In this document: piece by piece, positions 275 to 28,212 of the stretch
How the letters are laid out: each line of letters begins with the position of its first letter
How positions within the stretch are numbered: position 1 is the stretch's first letter
Assembly (NCBI GenBank): GCA_018287875.1
Contig: JAGVVL010000018.1
Location: 1,418,501-1,482,500, forward strand
Reading direction: 5' to 3'
DNA from: Nigrospora sphaerica
Lineage: Eukaryota > Ascomycota > Sordariomycetes > Amphisphaeriales > Apiosporaceae
Length of the DNA stretch: 64,000 bases
Notes under the pieces: generated by a model
What the model was told of the DNA's origin: nothing
The model's database searches: none
What the model saw: the letters and a program-made list of their open reading frames with translations, nothing else
Position numbers and translations under genes: made by a program

Positions 275-1183
275 CTAATTAGGCCTGGTTGTGGCTGCAA
301 AACACCAAAAACCGTCTTAAGGGGTCTCATGATAGGTGTGGTGGCCCAAGTCTGGATTGGCCCAAGTGGTGGTAGTCCAACTTACTCCACACCTTCGTCC
401 AAACCCCCCGCTTCCGGGGGGCCGACCCAAACGGCCCCGGCGCCTTGCATCCGGCCCGAGACCGCATTCAGCGCAGGGCTCACCGTTGGACCCCCTGCAT
501 GTCGCCTTCGGTCTTCGAGTTCAGACTGAACAGGCATCCGCAGCCGAACCATGGACAACCGCCTCTGCTTTTCTCCACAGCACTGCCCACTCTTGGTAGC
601 CTGAGCCCCCGTTTTCTCGGGCCTTTATAGACCCATTTGGTCCGCGCTTGCAAGCCATTGGTGGCGTCTTGCATGGGCACCAGGTGCTACCATAGATGGA
701 AGGGACGTGGCGAAATAAGCTCCCGGCTCCATAGTACCTATAGGGCGACCCTTCTGGGCGACCCTTCTCAGCCCCGGTAGGCACAACCCTTGCTAGCTGG
801 TCTGCGCACAGCATCCCATGCGGCAGGTGGGGTGGTGCTTCCCCCCCATCCATGTCTGCCAGCCCCGGAACCTTGCAAACACCGGAGCGATTATCCACCG
901 GGTAGTGCTTCACACCTTTCTCGCCATACCTGAAGAACCATGTCCGGAAATCAGCGCAGCCAACCGGTAAGGTTAGCATTGCCGACAACGGCCACTGAGC
1001 CAGGCGAGGAATCGCCGGCACAGACTGCCCTGCGATGACTCCAGGGCCGCGAGGCGAAGATTGATGAACAGGGCGCAATCCCGCGGTATTAAAAAGCCCG
1101 TCTCGCCATCGTTCCTCGGGATTTCGATGAAGGGCATCGCCTCGCACACTCTTTTCGTCAGTCTTCAAGCCTATCGTGTGACT
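275..1183. other. Intergenic; upstream region of the chitinase gene
   Basis: No gene is supported here. Plus-strand ORFs at 329-630 and the minus-strand ORF at 521-1168 are proline/arginine-rich frame shadows without recognisable motifs. A short direct duplication (gcgacccttct, twice near 747-770) is visible. The stretch presumably holds the promoter and 5' UTR of the chitinase; I see no convincing TATA box. Confidence 0.4.
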
Positions 1184-4100
1184 ATGGTGACTCCGTCCTG
1201 GTTCACGACGGCGCTGGGGGCTGTTGGCCTCTTGCTTTCCGTCGACGGCGCTGCAGCGAAGCCTGGGTCCGCCTTCTTCAGGACAGCTTCCAGCCCGGCC
1301 TATCGTCAGCTCGACATCTGCCCAGAACGATGCGCCGTTTCGGGGGCCAGCCCTGGGAACTGGTCATCCTACCCCAACTTCAAGCAGCTGAGGAGGTGTC
1401 AAGAGACTATGTTCTACGATTTCTCCCTCTACGACCCCGTCGACAGTCTGACCGACAACCACCACATCCACGCTTGTTCGTCATTTGGTCATGATTTCTC
1501 CAAGATCCCCATCTCAGCATCCGCCGTCGCTTCTGCGCAGCCTGTCGACGTTACGTTTGAAATGGGATGGTGGCACGAGGGCTTCGGGCTGGCAGCCTCG
1601 GGCCTCCGGTCCCTTACCAGACAAATGCGCTCGTACGTCGACAACGGGCACGGAGCTGCTGACAGACCCTTCATCATGTTCGCTCAGGCTGGTCAGGCCA
1701 GTATTGGACTCTACATCGGCCAAGGTCTGCTGAATCAAGGCCTCAGCGCCTCTGCCCTGAAGACGTTCGAGGACAACCTCGCCAACCCCGATATCTCGAC
1801 CCCCAGTCTGGCCATGCAGCTCTGTGGGCCAGACTACGACAGTGCTCACATCTTCGGCATAATGGCCACCAGCAACGCGACCTTTGCTCCCATCCAGGAC
1901 GCCATAAAGACTTGGGCCAACGCCACATGTTTGTCCTATTCAGCGTCCGTGAACTTTGCCGGTCAGGCCATGTTCACCACGCCGCTTGCACACGCCAACG
2001 GCACAATCAATTCCACTTTATTCGCTCAGGATAGTGCGCTCGTCGAGCGTGCCGAGTGCAGGACGACCCAGGTCGAGTCTGGCGACAGCTGCGCCAAGCT
2101 GGCTGACAAGTGTGGCATCCCGCCCGCCGCGTTCACTCGGGTCAATCCGGCATCTGACTTTTGCGCCACGTTGCGACCGAAGCAGCACGTTTGCTGCTCC
2201 ATGGGCAACCTCCCTGACTTCAGTCCCAGTCCCAACGATGACGGTTCGTGCCATGCCTACCAGGTCAAGGCCGATGACAATTGTGATGATCTCGCGGCGC
2301 AGTTCAGCCTCACCAGGCAAAAGATCGAGGATTTCAACAAGGACACCTGGGGATGGAACGGCTGCAAGCTCTTGTACGTCGACACCGTCATGTGTCTGAG
2401 CAAGGGCTCGCCTCCCTTCCCTGCGCCAGTCGCCAACGCAGTGTGCGGTCCGCAAAAGCCTGGCTCCAAGCCCCCAACGGATGGCTCGGACATTGCCGAT
2501 CTCAACCCGTGCCCCTTGAACGCCTGCTGCAACATCTGGGGCCAGTGCGGCATCACCAAGGACTTCTGCGTGGATACCAACACCGGTGCCCCGGGAACTG
2601 CCAAGGCTGGCACTTACGGGTGCATCTCCAACTGTGGTACCGACATTGTCAAGGGCGATGGCAGTGGTGAGATCAATATTGCTTACTTTGAGGGGTACGG
2701 TTTGAGCCGACAGTGCCTCTTCCAGGACGCATCCCAAATCGACACTTCACAGTACACCCATCTACACTTCGGTTTTGGCACTTTGACGGCCGACTACGAG
2801 GTCAAAGTTGGCGACGAGCTCTCCAATTACCAATTCGAACAGTTCAAACTCGTCAAAGGCGCCAAGAGGATCCTGTCTTTTGGTGGCTGGGAATTCTCGA
2901 CCTCTCCTGCCACCTACGCCATCTTCCGCGACGGTGTCACGCCGGCAAATCGTTTCAAGATGGCCGCCAGCATTGCCAACTTCGTCGAAAGGCATGGCCT
3001 TGACGGCGTCGACATTGACTGGGAGTACCCCGGAGCCCCCGACATTCCCGGTATACCACCGGCGAGCAAGGAAGACGGCCCCAACTACCTGGCCTTCCTT
3101 GTACTCCTCAAGAACCTGCTGCGAGGCAAGTCGGTTTCCATCGCTGCTCCCTCCTCCTACTGGTACTTGAAGCAATACCCTCTTGAAGCGATAGGAAGAG
3201 TCGTGGACTACATTGTCTACATGACCTACGATCTCCACGGTCAGTGGGATACGGACAATGCCAACTCGCAAGAGGGGTGCGACAATGGCAACTGCCTGCG
3301 CAGCCAGGTAAACCTGACCGAAACCAAGCAGTCCTTGGCCATGATCACAAAAGCAGGCGTCCCCGGAAAAAAGATCGTTGTGGGCATCACCAGTTACGGG
3401 CGGTCCTACAGCATGGCCAAGTCTGGCTGTTGGGGGCCGGACTGCCTGTACACCGGCGACCGCTTGCACTCGGATGCCACACCCGGTACCTGCACTGGTA
3501 CAGCCGGGTACATTGCCGACGCTGAGATCGCCGAGATCATGGGCACCGGCAGTGGCCCAAAGAGGGACTCTGGCCGTGTCGTCGAGAGCTTTGTCGACCC
3601 GAGCAGCAACAGCGACATTCTAGTTTACGACGATAACCAGTGGGTCAGCTACATGAGCAGCAAAACCAAGAAGACGCGCGCCGCCCTGTACCGAGCCTGG
3701 GGTATGGGGGGCACCTCCGACTGGGCAAGCGACTTGCAGCAGTACCACGATGTCCCTCGCCCGGCAAAGAGCTGGGCCATCTTCAAGGAGCTCGCTCGCT
3801 CTGGTGATGATCCCAAAACGGACCACTCACGAAATGGCAACTGGACCGACTTTGACTGCACCAACAAGCTCACCGTCGACTGGGACGACTACACCCCCTC
3901 GATGAGATGGAAAGGGTTGAACGCCGATGCTGCATGGAGGGACATCGTCAGGATTTGGAAGGATACAGACAGCAGAAGGCCTGATGCCGACTTCAGCGCT
4001 TCCGTCCACGGCGTACTCAAGACCGGCTCACAGGCCGATTGTCGCGATATACAGTCTTCGAACTGCGACGTCTCTCGGGACTGTAGCAAAGGTATGGACG

Positions 4101-5599
4101 GCGAACTTTCAGGGCCTGCGGCGGAGTTGATTTGGAACTCACTTACTGCAATCCATCACATGTACAAGGTCTACTACGACGATCTCTTTGACGCCTTCAA
4201 CATCTACCAGGCCTCGATGGATGACATGGTAAACAAATTTGCCCCCATTCCGGCGGAACCGGACCCCAAATGGACACTCCTCCTCATTGACCTCATCACC
4301 GTCGGGGCCCTTTCGGCTGCGGGGCCGTTTTTCACTTCTTTTTTGAAGAACCAGGCATTCTTTGATGATAGCCCGGCCATGCAGGACAACGTCCAGGACC
4401 TCGTCATGAACCTGATCGGCCAGGGTACTACCATTGCCAAGGATGTTTTGCCGCCGACGGTGGGGAAGTGGACGCCGACAGACCAATATGCCTTCGGCAC
4501 CTGGATGGGCCAGGTCATCGATGGATGGGCCAACATCACCGTGCAGGCCGTGGACAGATTGTTCAACGGCTCAGACGCGTCGATTGAACTTCTTTGGAAC
4601 GCCATCTCCGACGGAAAGCTCATCGAGGGTAAGAACGCCGGGGGGGAGAAGAAATCACAGGAGAAACTCGAGAAAGAGGCCGACCGACAACTTCGAGCCA
4701 ACATTGGCAAAGTCTTCTTTGGCTTCTCCATCCCCGAGCTCTGGCGGGCTTCCAAGACGTACACCTTCGTGGCCGACTCGGGTGACGGGTGTGATGGGGA
4801 CACGGAAGCGAGCAGCAAATTTCTCTCGGGCGCCAAGGGAGCCTGCGTCGACGGTAGGATGTACTATCTGGTCAGCTTGAAAGGGCCTGCCAATGAGTGC
4901 ATCTGCTATCATAGAGAGACCCGGACGGGGTGCACAAACTATGTTTGCAAGGATAACAATTTCGTGCCGCCCCCAGGCCTTGACGAACTGGACGGGAAAC
5001 AGTTTGGACGCGTCACCGTGGAGGAACTGATCAAGGGCGCCGTCCGCACCTATGTCCAGAACGGCAAAAGGAACGGCGGTGCCTTCGCCGATCCCACGGA
5101 TGGCGGCACCATCGAGAACCTGATGGAAGTGGACATGACTACGCCGGGCATGGTCCGACTTCCCGTCTGCAGCCCCGACTTGGCGCATCGGGTCTGGGAC
5201 ACGTCTGGGGATGTCTTCAGTCCCAACTACCCCTGCGACGTCCCCCTGGGCACGGACGACTGCGGCGACTCCTCGTTCGAGAACACCTCCAGCGAAGTAT
5301 CGCCCAAGGTCGAGGACTGCCGTGCCCTTATCCGAAGCATCGAGGGCTTGGCCAACAAGCACTACAGCTGGAACCTCGTCAGCCAGAAGGCGATTGTGGA
5401 GGAAGGCTCCTGCCGTTTCGGTGTCGAGGCGACTTCGATCTCGGGCAATGTAGAGTTTCGTGTCGGCACTCAAGACGTCATCGACATCGTCAACGAATCC
5501 ATAAACCGGTTCGGCGGTAGTGGCCGGGTTTCGGCAAAGGGGTTCATGAACTGCAACGGCAACATCAAGCAGCAAGGCGTCAAGTGGGGCATCTACTAG
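1184..5599 (+). CDS. Secreted modular GH18 chitinase (LysM, chitin-binding, GH18, C-terminal Hce2-type domain)
   Basis: Intronless gene for about 1471 aa, secreted, predicted to hydrolyse chitin. I start at the ATG at 1184 because the next residues form a clean signal peptide (TTALGAVGLLLSV, cleavage near AAA-KPG); earlier in-frame starts put a poor leader in front. Order: a cysteine-containing N-terminal region typical of killer-toxin-like chitinases; two LysM-like segments (about residues 290-345 and 355-405); a hevein-type chitin-binding stretch (CNIWGQCG, about 420-480); a GH18 barrel (about 495-840) with the active-site motif DGVDIDWE, whose catalytic Glu is residue 614, and MTYDLHGQWD further on; a long linker region; and a Cys-rich C-terminus (about 1359-1471) matching the Hce2/ECP2-like pattern. 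This subgroup-C architecture is known in ascomycetes and is compared with the alpha subunit of yeast killer toxins, thought to act on chitinous walls of competitors or the producer. All key GH18 residues are present. Confidence 0.93.
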   Translation: MVTPSWFTTALGAVGLLLSVDGAAAKPGSAFFRTASSPAYRQLDICPERCAVSGASPGNWSSYPNFKQLRRCQETMFYDFSLYDPVDSLTDNHHIHACSSFGHDFSKIPISASAVASAQPVDVTFEMGWWHEGFGLAASGLRSLTRQMRSYVDNGHGAADRPFIMFAQAGQASIGLYIGQGLLNQGLSASALKTFEDNLANPDISTPSLAMQLCGPDYDSAHIFGIMATSNATFAPIQDAIKTWANATCLSYSASVNFAGQAMFTTPLAHANGTINSTLFAQDSALVERAECRTTQVESGDSCAKLADKCGIPPAAFTRVNPASDFCATLRPKQHVCCSMGNLPDFSPSPNDDGSCHAYQVKADDNCDDLAAQFSLTRQKIEDFNKDTWGWNGCKLLYVDTVMCLSKGSPPFPAPVANAVCGPQKPGSKPPTDGSDIADLNPCPLNACCNIWGQCGITKDFCVDTNTGAPGTAKAGTYGCISNCGTDIVKGDGSGEINIAYFEGYGLSRQCLFQDASQIDTSQYTHLHFGFGTLTADYEVKVGDELSNYQFEQFKLVKGAKRILSFGGWEFSTSPATYAIFRDGVTPANRFKMAASIANFVERHGLDGVDIDWEYPGAPDIPGIPPASKEDGPNYLAFLVLLKNLLRGKSVSIAAPSSYWYLKQYPLEAIGRVVDYIVYMTYDLHGQWDTDNANSQEGCDNGNCLRSQVNLTETKQSLAMITKAGVPGKKIVVGITSYGRSYSMAKSGCWGPDCLYTGDRLHSDATPGTCTGTAGYIADAEIAEIMGTGSGPKRDSGRVVESFVDPSSNSDILVYDDNQWVSYMSSKTKKTRAALYRAWGMGGTSDWASDLQQYHDVPRPAKSWAIFKELARSGDDPKTDHSRNGNWTDFDCTNKLTVDWDDYTPSMRWKGLNADAAWRDIVRIWKDTDSRRPDADFSASVHGVLKTGSQADCRDIQSSNCDVSRDCSKGMDGELSGPAAELIWNSLTAIHHMYKVYYDDLFDAFNIYQASMDDMVNKFAPIPAEPDPKWTLLLIDLITVGALSAAGPFFTSFLKNQAFFDDSPAMQDNVQDLVMNLIGQGTTIAKDVLPPTVGKWTPTDQYAFGTWMGQVIDGWANITVQAVDRLFNGSDASIELLWNAISDGKLIEGKNAGGEKKSQEKLEKEADRQLRANIGKVFFGFSIPELWRASKTYTFVADSGDGCDGDTEASSKFLSGAKGACVDGRMYYLVSLKGPANECICYHRETRTGCTNYVCKDNNFVPPPGLDELDGKQFGRVTVEELIKGAVRTYVQNGKRNGGAFADPTDGGTIENLMEVDMTTPGMVRLPVCSPDLAHRVWDTSGDVFSPNYPCDVPLGTDDCGDSSFENTSSEVSPKVEDCRALIRSIEGLANKHYSWNLVSQKAIVEEGSCRFGVEATSISGNVEFRVGTQDVIDIVNESINRFGGSGRVSAKGFMNCNGNIKQQGVKWGIY

Positions 5600-6041
5600 G
5601 TACGGGGACCAACGGGCACTGCCATGGGGGCAACAGGCACAGCTTCCTGGATAGAAATATCAGTCTTTTTCCACTTGTGAATGTCTTTTCCCCTCTTCTC
5701 GCACGTCGGGGTGTAAGCGTCAGCGTAGCTCCCTCTGTGCCGGCCAAATTCAGTGTACGGAGCCCTGGCCCGAGGCTTGCCGCCCTGAATTATTAATCTA
5801 CCGGCGTGCTGGACTGGGAAGCCAGAGTGCCCGGTTTGGTCTACTATATAGGCTCGGAATCCACTCGACTGCATCATGGTGCTGCCCACACAGCAAGCCG
5901 TATTCACGCTAAGAGGAACCAGAGCATCCAGCCTTTTGGCCAGAGCGGGCGGGCCAGAGGACCGACAGATTGTGAGAACCCCAATTCGCCCAACGCTCGA
6001 CCACTTATGCCTTTTGCCTTGCCACTATTACTTTTCTACCC
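5600..6041. other. Intergenic; possible promoter with TATATA
   Basis: Chitinase 3' region followed by about 200 bp containing a TATATA hexamer at 5845-5850. If this is a TATA box, transcription would start near 5875-5890 and run through the intron-like array into the HET gene. No coding exon is supported. Confidence 0.3.
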
Positions 6042-7097
6042 TGACCAGCCCGACAGGCCAGATGGATCAGAGCTGACCTACTTCTGTTCGTCACTTTAGC
6101 GAGTAAGTGACGCGAACTCGACCAGCCCAACAGGCCAGTTGAATCAGAACTGACCTACTTCTGTTTGTTACTGTAGAAAGTAAGTGGCGACACCTCGAGT
6201 AGCCTGACCAGCCCGACAGGCCAGATGAATCAGAACTGATCTACTTCTGTTCGTCGCTGTAGCTTGTAAGTGATGCGACCTCGACTAGCCCGACAGGCCA
6301 GATGGATCAGAACTGACCTACTTCTGTTTGTTGGTGTAGGATGTAAGTGACGCGACGTCGACCAGCCCGACAGGCCAGTTAAATCAGAACTGACCTACTT
6401 CTGCTCGTCGCTGTAGGAAGTAAGTGAGGCAACATTAACCATCCTGATTAGCCAGACAGGCCAGATGGATCAGAACTGACCTACTTCTGTTCGTCGCTGT
6501 AGGATGTAAGTGACGCGACGTCGACTAGCCCGACAGGCCAGATGAATCAGAACTGATCTACTTGTGTTCGTCGCTGTAGGATGTAAGTGAGGCGACGTCG
6601 ACAAGCCCGACAGGCCAGTTGAATCAGAGCTGACCTACTTCTGTTCATCGCTATAGCTTGTAAGTGATGCGACCTCGACCAGCCGGACAGGCCAGATGAA
6701 TCAGAACTGACCTACCTCTGTTCGTCGCTTTAGGCAGTAAGTGACACGACGTCGACCAGCCCGACAGGCCAGTTGAATCAGAACTGACCTACTTCTGTTT
6801 GTTGGTGTAGGATGTAAGTGACGCGACGTCGACCAGCCCGACAGGCCAGTTAAATCAGAACTGACCTACTTCTGCTCGTCGCTGTAGGATGTAAGTGACG
6901 CGACCTCGACCAGCCTAGCGGGCCAGATCGATCGGATGGATCAAAACTGACCTACTTCTGTTCTTCTCTACAGGAAGTAAGTCACGCGAAATTGCCCAGG
7001 CTGATCAGCCAGACAGGCCAGATAGATCAGAACTAACCTACTTCTGTTCGCTGCTGTAGGAAGTAAGTGACGCGACCTCGACCAGCCCGACGGGCAG
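6042..7097 (+). repeat. Tandem array of 13 intron-like units (77 or 86 bp)
   Basis: Thirteen GTAAGT hexamers sit at 6103, 6180, 6266, 6343, 6420, 6506, 6583, 6660, 6737, 6814, 6891, 6977 and 7063. Spacings are 77 or 86 bp only. Each unit contains, in order, a 5' splice site (GTAAGTGA), a conserved GACAGGCCAG block, a branch-site-like AACTGAC (variants CTGAT, CTAAC), a pyrimidine-rich run (CTACTTCTGTTCGTCGC) and TAG (once CAG). Exactly three bases separate each AG from the next GTAAGT: cga, aaa, ctt, gat, gaa, gat, gat, ctt, gca, gat, gat, gaa, gaa. The implied introns are 74 or 83 nt. Orientation matches the downstream HET gene, whose proposed ATG is at 7110. Periods of 77/86 rule out a translated repeat. 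It is either a minisatellite derived from an intron or a true run of introner-like units. Confidence 0.9.
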
Positions 7098-7109
7098 TAT
7101 ACGTGTGAT

Positions 7110-9200
7110 ATGAACACGCCTAACACAGTATTCAATGTAATACTAGCCAGTATGACAAGTCGCACGTCACCCCCCCAATCATTCCCTTGGTCTAACGTGT
7201 ACCTAGTACCTGTCGGACAGTTGGATTTTCCGTTCCGACCACGCCTTCACCGAGGGTCTTCCCGCCAACGTCTTTCAGCATGTCTCACAGAATGCCCCAT
7301 CTCGACTTTGTGGCCGTTGCTCGGACGCCGATTCTACACAACCGATTAGATTACGGCAGCCAATCGAAGGCTGCGATTTGTGCACACTACTGGGAGGCCC
7401 CAGTCACCAGAACGAAGATGCCATTTGTCTCACGATACGCCCAAATGGCTGGATGCTTTGCAGGACTGAAGGTAGTAGATCCTATATGCAGCTCGTGAGG
7501 CCGCCGTTTACTAACTGTTCATTACAGAGCAAGGGGGTGATCCTAAAATCCCCCGCGGACTTCCGCAGCTTCCCGAACTTGGGGGTGATGCCTATTTCGA
7601 CCTCCTCCGTGCCTGGGTTAACGACTGTAATACCTCCGCGGCGGGGCATCAGCATTGTTCACGAGAACTGACGACTTTCGAGCCGCCTACTAGGCTTATT
7701 GATATAGGCCTCGAGGGACTTCCTTCGTCTCTTCGCCTTGTGTCTGATATGGCCGAGCATACGTCCTACATTGCCCTGTCCCATTGCTGGGGTGAATTGA
7801 AGGACGTGATAAGAGACCAGATCAACACGTCGGGAGCTAATCTGGACAACCGGAAGGCAGGGTTTCAAATGACTGAACCCTTCTGGCCACAGACATTCCT
7901 CGACGCAATCCGGGTGACGCGAGAACTTGGGCAACGTTACCTCTGGATTGATGCCATCTGTATTAACCAGAGCGACACTAAAGAATGGGAAAGCGAGTCG
8001 CAGCGTATGGAGAAAGTGTTCGAGAATGCCTACTGCACCATCGCTGCCGTCTCTGTCGACGATTCCTCCGAACATGGCTTCCTTCGGCCCTCCAAGGATG
8101 GTAAACTCCTGCCAAAGCGACCAGAGAGACCGTGTGTGCGCCTGGACACCCGCTCTCACGGGACCGTCTATGTATGCAAAGACATCGACCAGTTTAAGGA
8201 AGACGTGCAGGACGATCTCTTAAATAAGCGCGCCTGGGTCCTGCAGGAGAGAGCGCTCTCACGACGAACAATTCATTTCACCACGAACCAAACCTACTGG
8301 GAGTGTGGTCTCGGCATACGCTGTGAGACCTTGACCCGGATAAAAAGGTACATGAAGCACTCGAAATATTCCGTGGAAACTAAATACTTTCTCTCTCCTG
8401 CTTATGTTTTACGTTTAAGCATTATCCTTTGATTAGGCAGAGGCTGACATTCTTACTTTAGTGGCACGTCGACATTTATAAGTGACCCGCGCTTTCCTGC
8501 TGCACTTACCAATGCTGGAATAAGACCTCGTCTTGAACTTTCGCAACACTTATACAAGCGATATACAATGCTCGATCTCACCGAATCGAGCGACCGACGT
8601 GTCGCGATCTTGGGGCTCGAGAAGCGACTGGCAGGCACATTTGGAACGAAATCTGAGCACGGTATCTTCCACGATTGGTACCTTCCCCGAAGCCTCTTAT
8701 GGCAGCGTCACGGCTCGGCTAGGATGAAGCCTATCAGGTACAAAGACGAGCACAAGGTTCCATCGTGGTCTTGGATGGCCTGCGAGGGACCTATCGACTA
8801 TATGGTGGTTAGTTTCGGGCATGTCGATTGGGTGAAGTCGACACTCTCCTATCTCCATCTCGATGGGGGTATGCTCAGGACGCAAGTCTGCAGGCTTCAG
8901 GCCTGTGAGATAGCTCAAGCCATTCCCCGATCCGAAGATAGACGATGCACCTTAAAGGATCAAAGAGGAGAGTCAAGGGGAGAGTGGTGGCTCAGGTTCG
9001 ACGGGGACGACAGAACTAAGGTGGAGTCAGTCGGGTGTGTTATTATCGGAAGGGAAGCATCCAAGTCTGGGCATGGAAGGCTGTACTACGTGCTGGTTGT
9101 TGCGCCGCACCCGGAGAGATGCGACTACCAGAGAGTCGGAGTTGGATCTGTTCCGCAGCAGTTTCTCTCCTTCAAGATGGTGGATGGATGTATCATTTGA
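7110..9200 (+). CDS. HET-domain (heterokaryon incompatibility) protein
   Basis: Spliced model 7110-7136, 7207-7471, 7528-8347, 8462-9200 gives 616 aa with all phases conserved. Introns are 7137-7206 (GTAATA, branch CTAAC, CCTAG), 7472-7527 (GTAGTA, TACTAAC, ACAG) and 8348-8461 (GTACAT, CTGAC, TTTAG). The N-terminus carries cysteine pairs (LCGRC, CDLC), followed by YFDLLRAWVNDC, then the HET domain at about residues 179-355 with YIALSHCWG, RYLWIDAICINQ and RAWVLQERALS, and a C-terminal part with LYKRYTMLDLT and PSWSWMAC. HET proteins trigger cell death after fusion of incompatible hyphae; allorecognition is usually encoded by polymorphic partners. The first exon (nine codons) is the least certain part: no ATG exists in frame between 7207 and 7471, and this splice supplies one in phase. 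The intron-like array ends 13 bp upstream of it. Confidence 0.85.
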
Positions 9201-9522: not shown

Positions 9523-10019
9523 AATTATGGTGACGCACGACGTATGGACAGACACAGGGGACGCCACCAGAGCTATGGGAACACAACAAATGACAGTGCA
9601 GCTTTCGGAAAATGTGCGAGCAGAGCGGCGAGAGGGACACACTGCGAGCGATGTGTTTGGGCGAGCAGCGACGCGGAAAATAAAGCCATCGCAGCCTTGT
9701 AAATAACCTAAGGCCCGTACTTGATAGTAAATCCATCGTGTGCCAGATTGAATAATTATACCTCACTCGATTTACTCTATCCAATAATTCCCAACCCGAT
9801 CGATTAGACGAAAGTGGTAACAGGAGTTAGATTAAGTCGATTACCAAAAGAGGAAATCAAGCAGCACAGGGGCTTGAAACCTCCTGAGGAAGAGTGGCTT
9901 AGCTTTCTGTGCTGCAATTGGCCGAAAGATGGAGGGCGTTTAAGACTTGGTAAAGCGGCAGGTGGTCATCTAATGGGCCGCCCATTCATCTCACGCAACG
10001 GCCGTTACCTAAAGAGGGA
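9523..10019. other. Non-coding transition into AT-rich block; small inverted repeat
   Basis: No gene supported. A 9-bp perfect inverted repeat, GCAGCACAG at 9861-9869 and CTGTGCTGC at 9907-9915, could be part of a degraded transposon end or a hairpin. From about 10020 the base composition becomes strongly AT-rich. Confidence 0.35.
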
Positions 10020-13000
10020 ATAAAAGTTCACCGACGATAAAAATACTTTAAAAATCTAATTAATACGTTAAGTGTACTTAAAAGCGTTTTATAAATAAAG
10101 GACCTCATTAAAGATTATAGTTCTTAATAAGCTATGTAATTTTCAAACGCTATTTAAGTATAAGCGCGCGACCTTATTAACGTTATTAGTGTCTTAATAA
10201 GTGATAAAGTGTTTTATTTTTGTTAAGCGGCAGATTATAACTAAGATAACGTTGTAGATATTACTCTATAGTAAGTGTATAACGAAGTCTATTAAAATAT
10301 CTTACTACACTCGTTAAAGTACGGGTAATAAGTAAAGCACCCTTACTTAACTTCGTAAGAAGAGATGGTTTAACATTAAGTATAATAATTATTATTTTAT
10401 TACTTTATAAAAGCGTATATCCGCGGTTAATAATAGTTTTAAGATAAGGTCTCGTATATACCGGCTCTTTTTAAGTGTTTAGCTATGATAATTGTATAAT
10501 ATAAATAAGTTAATTTAACGTAAAGTTTAAGTAAGTTAAGAATATAAAGGCGGTTATAATAATATAACATATTAACTCGCTCCTCGCATTTATTAAGAGA
10601 TATTAAGGGATATTAAGGGATATTAAGGGATATTAAGGGATATTAAGGGATATTAAGGGATATTAAGGGATATTAAGGGATATTAAGGGATATTAAGGGA
10701 TATTAAGGGATATTAAGGGATATTAAGGGATATTAAGGGATATTAAGGGATATTAAGGGATATTAAGGGATATTAAGGGATATTAAGGGATATTAAGGGA
10801 TATTAAGGGATAGTAGGGTTTCTTAGTATATAATGCCTTTAAAATAAAGTAAACAGTCTTATTTAACTTATGTCTTCGAGTTATAAGGTTTTAAATAGTT
10901 AGCGGTAATAATAAAGCGTGGCGATCTTATTATAAAAATAGTATAATAATAAGATCAAGGTTTAGGTTAACGATGTTTAATTTTAAGGGGTTGTTAAGAG
11001 CGAATTATAATTTAATTACAGCGTTAACTTAAGTCGGGCTTTCTTTAAAGCGGACTAATTTCTTTCAAGATTCGAAGTTCTCTTTTTTTAACTCGACTTT
11101 ACTTTAATATAATGATTGTTTATCCTCCTCTTTAAGTAAGTCTTTTAACTTCTTAATTTAAGTATTAAGTTATATTCCTTACTTTTTGAGTCGGTATATA
11201 ATTTTTAAATTACATCGAGATAAGAATTCAAACTATCTCGTTCATTAATGATTTAATAACTTTATCGCTATAAAGTATGCTAAGTTTTAGTAATTAACAA
11301 TGATCTTAATTAATAATAACACGCCTTTTAACTTAAGACGCCATTCTTCGAAGCAATAAATAATAGTTAAAAAGTTCCTTATTATAAATTTTATAGTTAA
11401 ATCCTATTAAAGAGTGCTTTTTTAAGAAGAAGGTAACTAAGTATAAGATTCTATCGTCTTTATATTATAATAGTATATTAAGTAAGATATAATTAAAGAC
11501 ATTAGTCTTTAAAATCACTTCTTTCTTTTAGTTAAAGAGAGTGATAACCGGGGCTAATATAAACGCGTTCTTTAACACGACGAATACATTCTTATACTCT
11601 TTTATTTAAGCGAGTTTAAACCCTTTCCTTTTAAGGTTAATTAACGGGGCAATAATCTTTAAAAAGTTTTTAATAAACTAGCGGTAAAAGTTTTTGAAGT
11701 TAACAAACGCTTATATATTAATTAAGTAGGATAAGTTAGCTTAATTCTTAACTGCCTTAATCTTAACCTGGTTTAAACGTAAGTTACTGTAATTAATAAT
11801 TATCTTTAAGAACGTGGTCTTAGCTTTAAAGAATTCACACTTCGAAATTTTTATAAATAAGCCAGCTTCTTTTAATACTTAAAGCACTTTTTATAAATGT
11901 TCGACATGTTCCTTATAAGTCCGGCTATAAATGAAGATATCGTTGGAGAATATAATATAATATAATTTTAAATGAAAATATAAGATATCGTTAATAAACC
12001 TCAAAAACATAATAAAGGCTTTCATTAATTTAATAGGTATAATTAATAACTCAAATAAGTTAAACGAGTGTAAAATATAGTTCAGTATTCTTATCTCTTT
12101 TTAACCTTAATCTTATTAAAGGCTGTAATAATATCGACTTTAAAGAACTACTTTATTCTCTTTATGTTATTTAAGGTTTCCTTAACTAAGGGTAGTAAGT
12201 AATAGTCCTTATAAATGATGTTATTTAAGGTATAGTGATTAATATTAAAACAGAGCCCTCTGTTAAGCTTCTTAACGAATAAGATAAGGGATATAGTTAA
12301 AGACGAGATAAGTTAAATAAACCCTTTTTAAAGATTCTTGTATAGCCACTCTTTTAATATAGATAATTCGTTATAAGATATAGTACATAAAGGTTTAAAA
12401 GGGAGGCATTTTCTCTTTTATTAGTTTAATCTCGTATTCGTAATCCCAATGTCATAGTAGTTTCTTTACTTCTTTTAATGAGAGTATATTTTTAAATTCT
12501 CGTGGTTTAACGGGAGTTACTTAAATAAAGGTGGATTAGCCTTTTAAAATGGGTGCTCGTCGATTTCTTCGATAGTGATAAGAAACGCGGTGTATTCTTT
12601 CTATAAGTATGCTAAGTAAGCGTGAGCGGTAATTAAAGCGACATCATAATAAAATAATGCATCCAAATAAGTCGGTAGGTTCTTTAAGCGGGCATATATA
12701 AGAACGTTATATATAGTAATAACCTTTATAAGTTTCTTTAATATATTATATTTTTAAAAAAATATAATTCGCTGTTAAATATTAATATTTAAGTTACAAA
12801 ACTTATATAAAGGTAGTATATTTCAAGCTATGAGATTTTGAAGATAAAAAGGAAGTAAGCTAGCTAAGTTATAGAAACGTAATTGTTTCTTATAATAATC
12901 GTTTCTTCGTATCGAATATTTAACGAAGTAGGTAACCTTCCCACTCTCGCTTAAGCGACCGTCGATCATCTCGATCTTAAATAATCTTTATGAAGGCTAA

Positions 13001-13521
13001 ATTAATAGCTTATAAGTTTTAACATATATATAGTTAGTAAGTGCTTTAATAGCGGCTTTAAAGTTAACAAAAACGTAAGTTAATAAGGTGTATTTATTAA
13101 AAATTAAAGTAGTAAGTAAGACTATAAGCTTTTTATATATATCTTTATCTTTATTAATAGATGAGTTATAAGCGGAATAAGTAGATATTAATAAAGGTAA
13201 CGGACTTAAAGAGCTAAGCTTAAGAGCTAATAAGCGACTTAATATAAGCTTGCGTTATTTAACGATTAAGAACTCTTTATATGTAGCTCTTGAAACTAAT
13301 TAATAAACGCGATTATAGCGGAGATAAGCTAAGGGGACTAAATAAGTATAAGTACTTACTAAGTAAGTAAGGTCGTGGATATTAAAAGGGGCGGGCTTCT
13401 TTAAGGGCTTAGAATACGGGCTTAATAGAATTAAATAAGTCAGCGGTTAAGTTTAAGGTATTGAGCGACTATACAGCCTTTATAACTGCACCGAAAATAT
13501 TCTCCTCTCTTTCTTCGATTG
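10020..13521 (-). mobile_element. RIP-degraded Ty3/Gypsy retrotransposon remnant
   Basis: The block is AT-rich and stop-riddled, but the minus strand still shows a Ty3/Gypsy pol order read from high to low coordinates. Near 12590-12540 lies a decayed pre-RT region, near 12330 a KEWLYKN-like segment, near 12290-12250 SLILFVKKLNRGLCF (consensus PVLFVKKxxGGLRFCVDYR), near 12150 FFKVDI, and near 11950-11900 IFIYSRTYKEHVEHL followed by a relic of SKCEFF. RNase H and integrase would lie toward 10800-11500 but are too decayed to delimit. Excess TA/TTAA and loss of CpA fit RIP. It differs in sequence from the intact element to its right. LTRs were not identified; its 5' side stops at the left LTR of the next element. 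Confidence 0.8.
10591..10810. repeat. 10-bp tandem repeat (TATTAAGGGA), 21 perfect copies plus one variant
   Basis: The 10-mer TATTAAGGGA is repeated without error from 10601 to 10810, preceded by one variant copy (TATTAAGAGA) at 10591-10600. It sits inside the RIP-decayed element. Perfect homogeneity within a mutated background points to expansion after RIP, by slippage or unequal exchange. Confidence 0.98.
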
Positions 13522-26815: not shown

Positions 26816-27393
26816 TAGTCTATCTTTAAGCAAGTAAGCAAGCACACAAAATACACTCTCGTTTTTCTCAAAGAGAAGTTCCTTATTCTTCCGTGTTTTT
26901 TTACAATATAAAGCCACCGGCGGCTTATTAGCAAGGAGCGGGCGCATCGTTAGCGCCCGACTTAAACTTAAATTCTATAAGAATTAGTCTTATAATAGAA
27001 TTAAAACTACCCTTTGCTACCCTATACTTAACGGTACCACTATGACTCCTCTGGACCTTTATAATTACTCGGTCTTTAAAATTACATTAGTTAAGAGCGG
27101 TTACAAGGTTTAAGCCACGCGTCAAGTAATAGATATCTCTGCATCTTTAGCCACATCGTATAGATAACTATATCTTTCACTGTGTTTTAGAGTGTTAACG
27201 TTAACTTAAGTTTAACGCTAACTTAAGCTTATGCCGTAGAGCTACCTACCTTAACATCATTACTAACCTTAACGTTTAAAGCCGACGGTAAGTCACAAGC
27301 CCACCGCAGGTGCTCCTGGAAGGCCCTTGGAGGGCACCCCTCCCCGCATAGGAGGAAAAGAAATAGTTGTCTACGTATAGATTCCGACTCGTC

Positions 27394-27433
27394 TCGTGGG
27401 CTCTCTCGTGGGCTCTCTCGTGGGCTCTCTCGT
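27394..27433. repeat. 12-bp tandem repeat (TCGTGGGCTCTC), 3.3 copies
   Basis: Three perfect copies and a partial fourth. Confidence 0.95.
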
Positions 27434-27598
27434 ATTATCTAAGAGGTGGCATAGATGGTGTCGTAATAACGTACGGAATTAAACAAGAACTGAGTAGTAA
27501 CTAGAACTACTTAAGTAGTCGAATGGAAACATGTCTCTTACTTACGTGCGTTACGTGTCCCCTGCTACATGTGCTCTCTTACGTGTGTGCGTTTCTTT

Positions 27599-27623
27599 AA
27601 TTCGAAGGCGAAGCCTTCGAATT
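27599..27623. repeat. Perfect palindrome, 11-bp arms with 3-nt loop
   Basis: AATTCGAAGGC, loop GAA, GCCTTCGAATT, followed by a run of five T. It resembles a hairpin terminator or a miniature element end; in a fungal genome it may just be a degraded terminal inverted repeat. Confidence 0.9.
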
Positions 27624-28212
27624 TTTATATATCAATTGGGAGCAAGCCTTAGCGAAGCGTTCCAATTTCAGAACGGCGTCATGAGTATCACTCAAGTCGG
27701 GCTGTCACGGGGTTTTATTAGATGTCCGTATCCTTTGTATGTTATCTTAGTGTGGCCGTCCTAACCGCTGGATGCGGTGGTGCTGATAGGGGTGGTTAGT
27801 CCGTGCGTGCTGGTGTCAGCGCTGACCTCTAATGCGTTGCTCAGATCCGCTGGGCTGGGTTCGTAACATAGGAGCTTTTCCGGGGTATGATCGGCGAGAT
27901 GTGGCTCGCGAGGCAGAAAGGCATTAAGGCATTGATGCTATTAGAACGAGAATACCCTGCGCAACTCTACGCCATCAGAGCCCGGTCTCCCAGGGTCCCT
28001 CACGGAAAGCGCATAGGCAGAGCGGGTGTCAAGCATCTCAGCGTGTCACCGGACGCTGTCCGTGCCAAACAAAGCTGGGTACGAGGGGGTTGACGATGGC
28101 TCAGAGAGAGTTCAGCGCCGACCCCGCCAACTCACACAGTTGCGAGCAGGAGCGGCAAGGAGGACTAGCAGGGGAGAGTACGAGACGGTCTCCCGGTCGG
28201 AGCCCTGGTGAT

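Follow-up and report, generated by a model that had tools for sequence, protein, structure and literature searches.

A HET-domain gene in the window, by which we mean the whole stretch of 64,000 nt analysed here, is preceded by a tandem repeat whose units carry splice-like signals. The question raised by this locus is whether the repeat is a non-coding minisatellite in front of the gene or a row of introns separated by exons the size of a codon.

The array and its splice-like junctions

The array occupies positions 6043-7095 of the forward strand, for which Tandem Repeats Finder gives a period of 77 and 13.2 copies. Minisatellites are tandem arrays with units of some tens of bp, and the stretch 6043-7095 is one in this sense. 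The hexamer GTAAGT occurs 13 times within it, first at 6103 and last at 7063, and the distance from one copy to the next is 77 bp in eight of twelve cases and 86 bp in the other four, which are the spacings given in a preliminary description of the locus. All 13 junctions have the form YAG-NNN-GTAAGT with, as had also been described, always exactly 3 nt from AG to GT; from 5' to 3' the enclosed triplets are CGA, AAA, CTT, GAT, GAA, GAT, GAT, CTT, GCA, GAT, GAT, GAA and GAA.

Inspection of the 13 aligned rows reveals GTAAGT as the donor in every row and an acceptor that is TAG in 12 rows and CAG in one. The branch site reads AACTGAC in eight rows, AGCTGAC in two, AACTGAT in two and AACTAAC in one, and CTRAY fits all 13. 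The claim that each unit holds a complete set of intron signals thus stands for the donor and for the branch site in its degenerate form, but not for the exact heptamer AACTGAC or for a uniform TAG. Likewise, the thirteen intron-like units first described are 13 junctions, between which lie 12 complete intron-like stretches of 74 nt (n = 8) or 83 nt (n = 4). Both edges of the array fall mid-intron, with an acceptor half at the start and a donor half at the end, the outcome expected from duplicating an exon plus its two flanking half-introns. Stretches 4 and 10 are identical, and the mean pairwise identity of the stretches is 86%, which suggests a recent rearrangement of part of the array. By inspection, all 13 junctions, along with the 12 intervening introns, match the Aspergillus consensus as quoted in PMC12403724 (donor GURWGY, branch RYURAY, acceptor YAG), to which the outer donors of the gene model given below, GTGAGA (5972) and GTATGA (7150), are a poorer match than the array donors.

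Since repeat copies share their signals by descent, 13 good-looking introns amount to approximately one observation. On the minus strand of the array (window 6083-7050), a weaker splice-like junction consisting of CAG, 2 nt and GTAGGT is present in 11 units. A minus-strand reading was rejected, its junctions being weaker, with 2 or 6 nt between the sites, and attributable to chance multiplied by the repeat.

The variation among the copies is more informative about the forward strand. At the 11 strict splice positions (the six of GTAAGT, C, T and A in the branch site, and AG) there are zero deviating rows, compared with an average of 1.25 in the other intron columns, and the hypergeometric probability that all 11 are invariant is 0.0008. 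When the splice mask is laid over the 77 circular placements, zero deviations are obtained at the true placement only. The three exon columns, with 14 deviations, form the most variable triplet, again at the true placement only among the 77. The earlier remark that the triplets vary while the splice signals hold steady is borne out by these columns. Drawn from 13 related rows, the pattern is modest evidence that agrees with constraint on splicing and with freedom or diversification of the codon.

The predicted gene model and the start of the HET exon

The gene downstream of the array encodes a HET domain (PF06985, 109.9 bits against a cut-off of 22.5), which is the only domain found in the protein at E up to 0.001; the gene is thus distinct from the NACHT-ANK type known from Tuber. 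With E up to 0.001, 1,030 of 7,996 scored candidates count as homologs, Diaporthe being the best named match (45%); the details given here are drawn from the best 120 of the 1,030. A motif of the form LxDxW...DNxFA, located by regular expression ahead of the C..C part, is present in 31 of these 120 among the matches listed. In the window gene the motif begins at the second codon after the acceptor at 7206, and the homologs keep it up to the first codons after this acceptor. The exon 7207-7471 contains no in-frame ATG, and its frame is closed just upstream by TAG 7204-7206, the end of a CCTAG acceptor that is preceded by TCTAAC. The start must therefore come from an upstream exon.

A splice parser, in which the site weights are approximations, connects 5876 to 7207 by 15 introns and 14 inner exons, every one of the exons exactly 3 nt long and all in phase 0. 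The resulting model comprises the following features, with micro-exons 1 to 13 predicted from the junction pattern together with the parse.

5876-5971, forward: predicted first coding exon (MVLPTQQAVFTLRGTRASSLLARAGGPEDRQI), weakly supported, with donor GTGAGA at 5972
5972-6099, forward: predicted intron 0, 128 nt, from the parse; from 6043 onward it consists of the array's opening half-unit
6100-6102, forward: predicted micro-exon 1, CGA
6177-6179, forward: predicted micro-exon 2, AAA
6263-6265, forward: predicted micro-exon 3, CTT
6340-6342, forward: predicted micro-exon 4, GAT
6417-6419, forward: predicted micro-exon 5, GAA
6503-6505, forward: predicted micro-exon 6, GAT
6580-6582, forward: predicted micro-exon 7, GAT
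6657-6659, forward: predicted micro-exon 8, CTT
6734-6736, forward: predicted micro-exon 9, GCA
6811-6813, forward: predicted micro-exon 10, GAT
6888-6890, forward: predicted micro-exon 11, GAT
6974-6976, forward: predicted micro-exon 12, GAA
7060-7062, forward: predicted micro-exon 13, GAA
7063-7146, forward: predicted intron 13, 84 nt; runs from the donor half at the array end into unique sequence, where a CTAAC branch site and an ACTAG acceptor follow
7147-7149, forward: predicted micro-exon 14, CCA, outside the repeat, with donor GTATGA, from the parse
7150-7206, forward: predicted intron 14, 57 nt; TCTAAC branch site and CCTAG acceptor, which holds the in-frame TAG stop
7207-7471, forward: HET gene exon that opens with the conserved N-terminal motif (YLSDSWIFRSDHAF), from homologs
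7528-8347, forward: HET gene exon with the HET domain PF06985, from the domain search
8462-9200, forward: last exon of the HET gene, from the open frame

The first exon, the 13 array triplets and the three HET exons together form an open frame of 652 aa, or 653 with CCA. Retention of an intron brings an in-frame stop in all 15 predicted cases, and in 13 of the 15 this stop lies inside the branch-site motif (TGA or TAA). The ATG at 5876 is the only listed one upstream of the array with a fair phase-0 donor. Support for exon 1 is nevertheless weak, because a comparable first exon also turns up in 58 of 400 shuffled versions of the upstream region. For the CCA exon, situated in unique sequence, the score is reached by two of 400 flank shuffles, and by one of 400 with a 3-nt exon. 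A further micro-exon, ATT at 5969-5971, appears in a slightly lower-scoring parse and is not claimed.

A database search with residues 1-110 of the predicted protein found no relative, so that exon 1 and the micro-exon peptide stand without support from homology. The 14 residues ahead of the motif in 28 of the 120 listed homologs are mildly charged (32% against 26%); a likeness between this region and the micro-exon peptide, limited to this mild enrichment, was dropped as support.

Judged from its phases and flanking exons, the array is probably part of the coding region, with a start exon before it and the HET exon after it, rather than a mere 5' leader as initially supposed.

A paralogous linker and the search for further copies

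A protein search of the same genome (51.6 Mb, 33 contigs) with the HET protein gave 39 matches. Among the loci then in hand, the LxDxW motif is present in one other gene, a paralog on contig C5 at ~977-981 kb (locus L019, which overlaps L031 as part of one gene, to which L079 also belongs). This paralog encodes a protein kinase domain (PF00069, 1.3e-20) and a HET domain (PF06985, 1.6e-32), an architecture common to many of the HET-protein homologs among the matches listed. Its kinase exon has a phase-0 end at GTGAGC and is separated from its HET exon by a non-repetitive linker of 307 nt (L019 771-1077; contig C5, ~977.8-978.1 kb), at a position equivalent to that of the window array.

The best parse of the linker (parse A) predicts introns of 59, 65, 65, 53 and 53 nt separated by the inner exons TAT, AAT, TTG and CTC of 3 nt each, with phase 0 at both ends. 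A tied parse B places a 24-nt exon where A has TTG, which leaves three 3-nt exons, and a third parse with a score close behind has a 6-nt exon in the same place. No dinucleotide shuffle (n = 400) and no window segment substituted for the linker (n = 200) attains the score of the paralog. One 3-nt exon occurs in the best parse of 19 of the 400 shuffles and eight of the 200 segments, two or more in none. The predicted sites vary in quality: GTRWGY fits two of the five donors, GTTAGT, GTAGGT and GTGGGT being poor, and two of the five acceptors are the poor AAG (AAAG and GAAG). With YAG acceptors only, two 3-nt exons are left in the best parse, the score of which is matched by 0, 1 and 0 of 300 shuffles at three penalties.

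A strict regular-expression scan, which is independent of the parser weights, also detects the TAT, TTG and CTC junctions in the paralog. The strict forward junction is found in none of 25 other HET-matched loci (L020-L045 without L031), the reverse form once each in two of them. In the window outside the array, the scan yields three forward matches, one of which is CCA. High-scoring candidate short-exon junctions are also seen at window 27282-27802, namely AAAG-CCGACG-GTAAGT (27282) and ATAG-GGGTG-GTTAGT (27790). A search with the N-terminal 119 aa of the paralog returned the paralog itself and two weak matches; since the window gene was not returned, more diverged relatives of the motif may be missed.

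Introner-like elements had been put forward as one origin of the array, together with a genome search for solitary copies of the unit. In a DNA search of the same genome at E up to 10, all 14 matches lie inside the array and none outside it, and all 12 matches to a 32-nt piece of the unit with up to three mismatches lie there as well, both searches being of a kind that could miss strongly diverged copies. Junction patterns that require a branch site and YAG, then 3 nt, then a strong donor occur outside the array 27, 20 and 41 times, against 25, 19 and 30 times in reversed controls. No other cluster is apparent by eye in the genome-wide lists for the three strict forms, which are blind to runs with weak donors such as that of the paralog. 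The junction background over the fetched loci was not used as a null, being biased to 3-nt junctions by the many loci that were fetched with a 3-nt pattern; it held one chance pair, in an AT-rich tract at 13.0-13.1 kb. The window has no Rfam match at gathering thresholds, and no relatives were confirmed from viral contigs.

Micro-exon reading, rival explanations and known systems

We consider it probable, on the sequence evidence, that the array represents 13 phase-0 micro-exons of 3 nt, followed by a 14th outside the repeat, in the 5' coding part of the HET-domain gene. The array, its phases, a conserved exon that lacks a start codon and the equivalent run parsed in the paralog are what the sequence shows, and these, together with the predicted CCA exon, lend support to the micro-exon reading that had been suggested at the outset.

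If the array is instead a non-coding minisatellite in a promoter or 5' leader, a single coincidence copied 13 times, translation would start at ATG 7110 (MNTPNTVFN) and a 70-nt intron at 7137-7206 would be removed. The frame of this ATG has phase-0 GT sites, and by inspection a donor GTAATA at 7137, which is below the score cut, could pair with the TCTAAC branch site and the CCTAG acceptor. Of the 31 motif-bearing listed homologs, 10 have at most 25 residues before the motif, and the models of three start within 2 residues of it; the minus strand, too, illustrates how a repeat multiplies chance junctions. However, GTAATA is weak while the strong GTAAGT at 7063 is near, and a start at 7110 leaves the micro-exon run of the paralog, the CCA exon and the unchanged splice columns without explanation; we therefore regard this alternative as unlikely. 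It is improbable, too, that the array is transcribed and then removed as intronic sequence in a single long jump or a small number of them, such as 5972 to 7206 (1,235 nt), with the micro-exons mostly skipped and the internal sites used erratically. Any donor-acceptor pair across the array would keep the frame, and use of distal sites is known in some stwintrons (PMC12403724), but the same source describes splicing by intron definition, under which neighbouring sites are paired preferentially, and no decay is seen in the splice columns.

A spreading intron that landed repeatedly at this site, in the manner of introner-like elements or stwintrons, is very improbable, even though no intron signal is missing from the unit. 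Introner-like elements, which place almost the same intron in many genes that are otherwise unrelated, are disfavoured because neither the DNA search nor the search with the 32-nt piece found a copy of the unit outside the array, and the junction counts there are near those of the reversed controls. Stwintrons, in which a splice element of one intron is split by a second intron, are at odds with the parse, where no intron shares its donor, branch site or acceptor with another; being complete and not nested, the array introns are not stwintrons. Recurrent intron sequences are known from both classes in ascomycetes. As reported, introner-like elements are scattered over genes (PMC4457414) and the stwintrons of Hypoxylaceae are scattered or nested (PMC8469720, PMC9024468, PMC12403724), whereas the window array is confined to one locus and is not nested.

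As to actual splicing, which we infer along with the start codon, the duplication route and any function, each of the 13 micro-exons has complete ordinary ascomycete splice signals, so that the introns would be removable singly by intron definition. Their removal could proceed one after another, with every splice leaving a new donor three bases downstream. Only in this loose sense does the notion of recursive splice sites, likewise raised earlier, apply: a recursive-splicing ratchet has abutting acceptor and donor, but 3 nt separate AG and GT at all 13 junctions. In a 5'-to-3' order the upstream exon would be long at every step, and the tiny exons would then present no necessary steric problem. 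The predicted product is an acidic stretch, RKLDEDDLADDEE, followed by P, between the short N-terminal exon and the N-terminal motif of the HET protein; unit by unit the residues would be R K L D E D D L A D D E E, and CCA would supply the P.

The probable origin of the array is a tandem duplication that took in one micro-exon, the 3' half of the preceding intron and the 5' half of the following one. Skipping any number of micro-exons would keep the frame, and keeping any one intron would bring a stop. A unit measures 77 or 86 bp, lengths that three does not divide, yet would become one codon after splicing. A change in copy number would thus be invisible to the reading frame, and growth or shrinkage of the repeat would alter the protein by single residues. 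If this is true, a coding gene can stay intact while a tandem repeat with such a unit expands within it, because splicing reduces each unit to one codon.

Two roles can be envisaged within the micro-exon reading, unless the array is simply tolerated by the gene. Possible, though doubtful, is a splice-based generator of diversity, in which a minisatellite of one-codon exons would vary the N-terminal acidic stretch of a HET recognition protein residue by residue, through copy number among strains and in-frame skipping inside any one strain, with codons diversifying while the splice signals stay constant. Rather unlikely is a decoy or brake, a putative role within the micro-exon reading and not an alternative to it, in which the long chain of introns, all needing removal, would lower the output of a cell-death protein. 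The stop brought by retention of any of the 15 predicted introns is consistent with a brake, but stops are common in introns and hence not specific.

The closest known parallel is provided by the nank (NACHT-ANK) genes of Tuber melanosporum, for which Iotti et al. 2012 described codon-sized micro-exons (as related in PMC3689799, PMC4986451 and PMC10197012). Both cases combine many 3-nt exons, here predicted, with a fungal gene family linked to self/non-self recognition. In contrast to the nank genes, for which alternative splicing is reported in these accounts, the window holds a HET-domain gene, with its predicted micro-exons on the N-terminal side and multiplied by a tandem repeat of 77/86 bp. 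As a separate observation, the genome that contains the window has 65 NACHT-domain matches on many contigs.

Micro-exon genes (MEGs) have been defined by at least seven exons, of which at least half are micro-exons shorter than 70 nt and divisible by three, in runs of at least four (PMC7653826). In number, share and run length the predicted model, with 18 exons, 14 of them of 3 nt and in a run of 14, falls within this definition. Like the MEGs of schistosomes and tapeworms, as characterized in that report, it would have micro-exons in unbroken runs, each of a length divisible by three, which in the MEGs can be left out singly (PMC7653826). Unlike the window gene, MEGs are flatworm genes and encode unrelated proteins. 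Their exons are mostly longer than 3 nt.

Very short coding exons have also been reported in ascomycetes, namely a single micro-exon in Xlr2 of Trichoderma (PMC11121469) and a 1-nt exon in CYP621A of Fusarium (PMC12940212); as far as these accounts go they occur singly, not as a tandem run. The Xlr2 report calls functional micro-exons undescribed before in filamentous fungi, yet cites Iotti et al. (PMC11121469). In the literature covered, with subscription papers mostly outside this coverage, no run of 3-nt exons is reported in a HET-domain gene or from a tandem repeat. If true, the present reading adds HET genes to the NACHT-ANK genes of truffles as carriers of codon-sized micro-exon runs. 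It would then suggest that runs of this kind are a recurring feature of fungal self/non-self genes, one that gene finders may overlook. The array would moreover let one see, in a compact natural setting, how many 3-nt exons in a row a spliceosome can process.

The surroundings of the locus comprise two further elements. Directly upstream and on the same strand as the array, a long open frame (window 977-5599) has GH18 chitinases with LysM and chitin-binding domains as its listed relatives, some of them named killer-toxin subunits, and its best named match is from Apiospora (66%). Downstream, an AT-rich tract at window 9900-13450 contains TATTAAGGGA about 22 times at 10591-10812 and by eye looks affected by RIP; the micro-exon array, ~3 kb away from this tract, does not look AT-rich.
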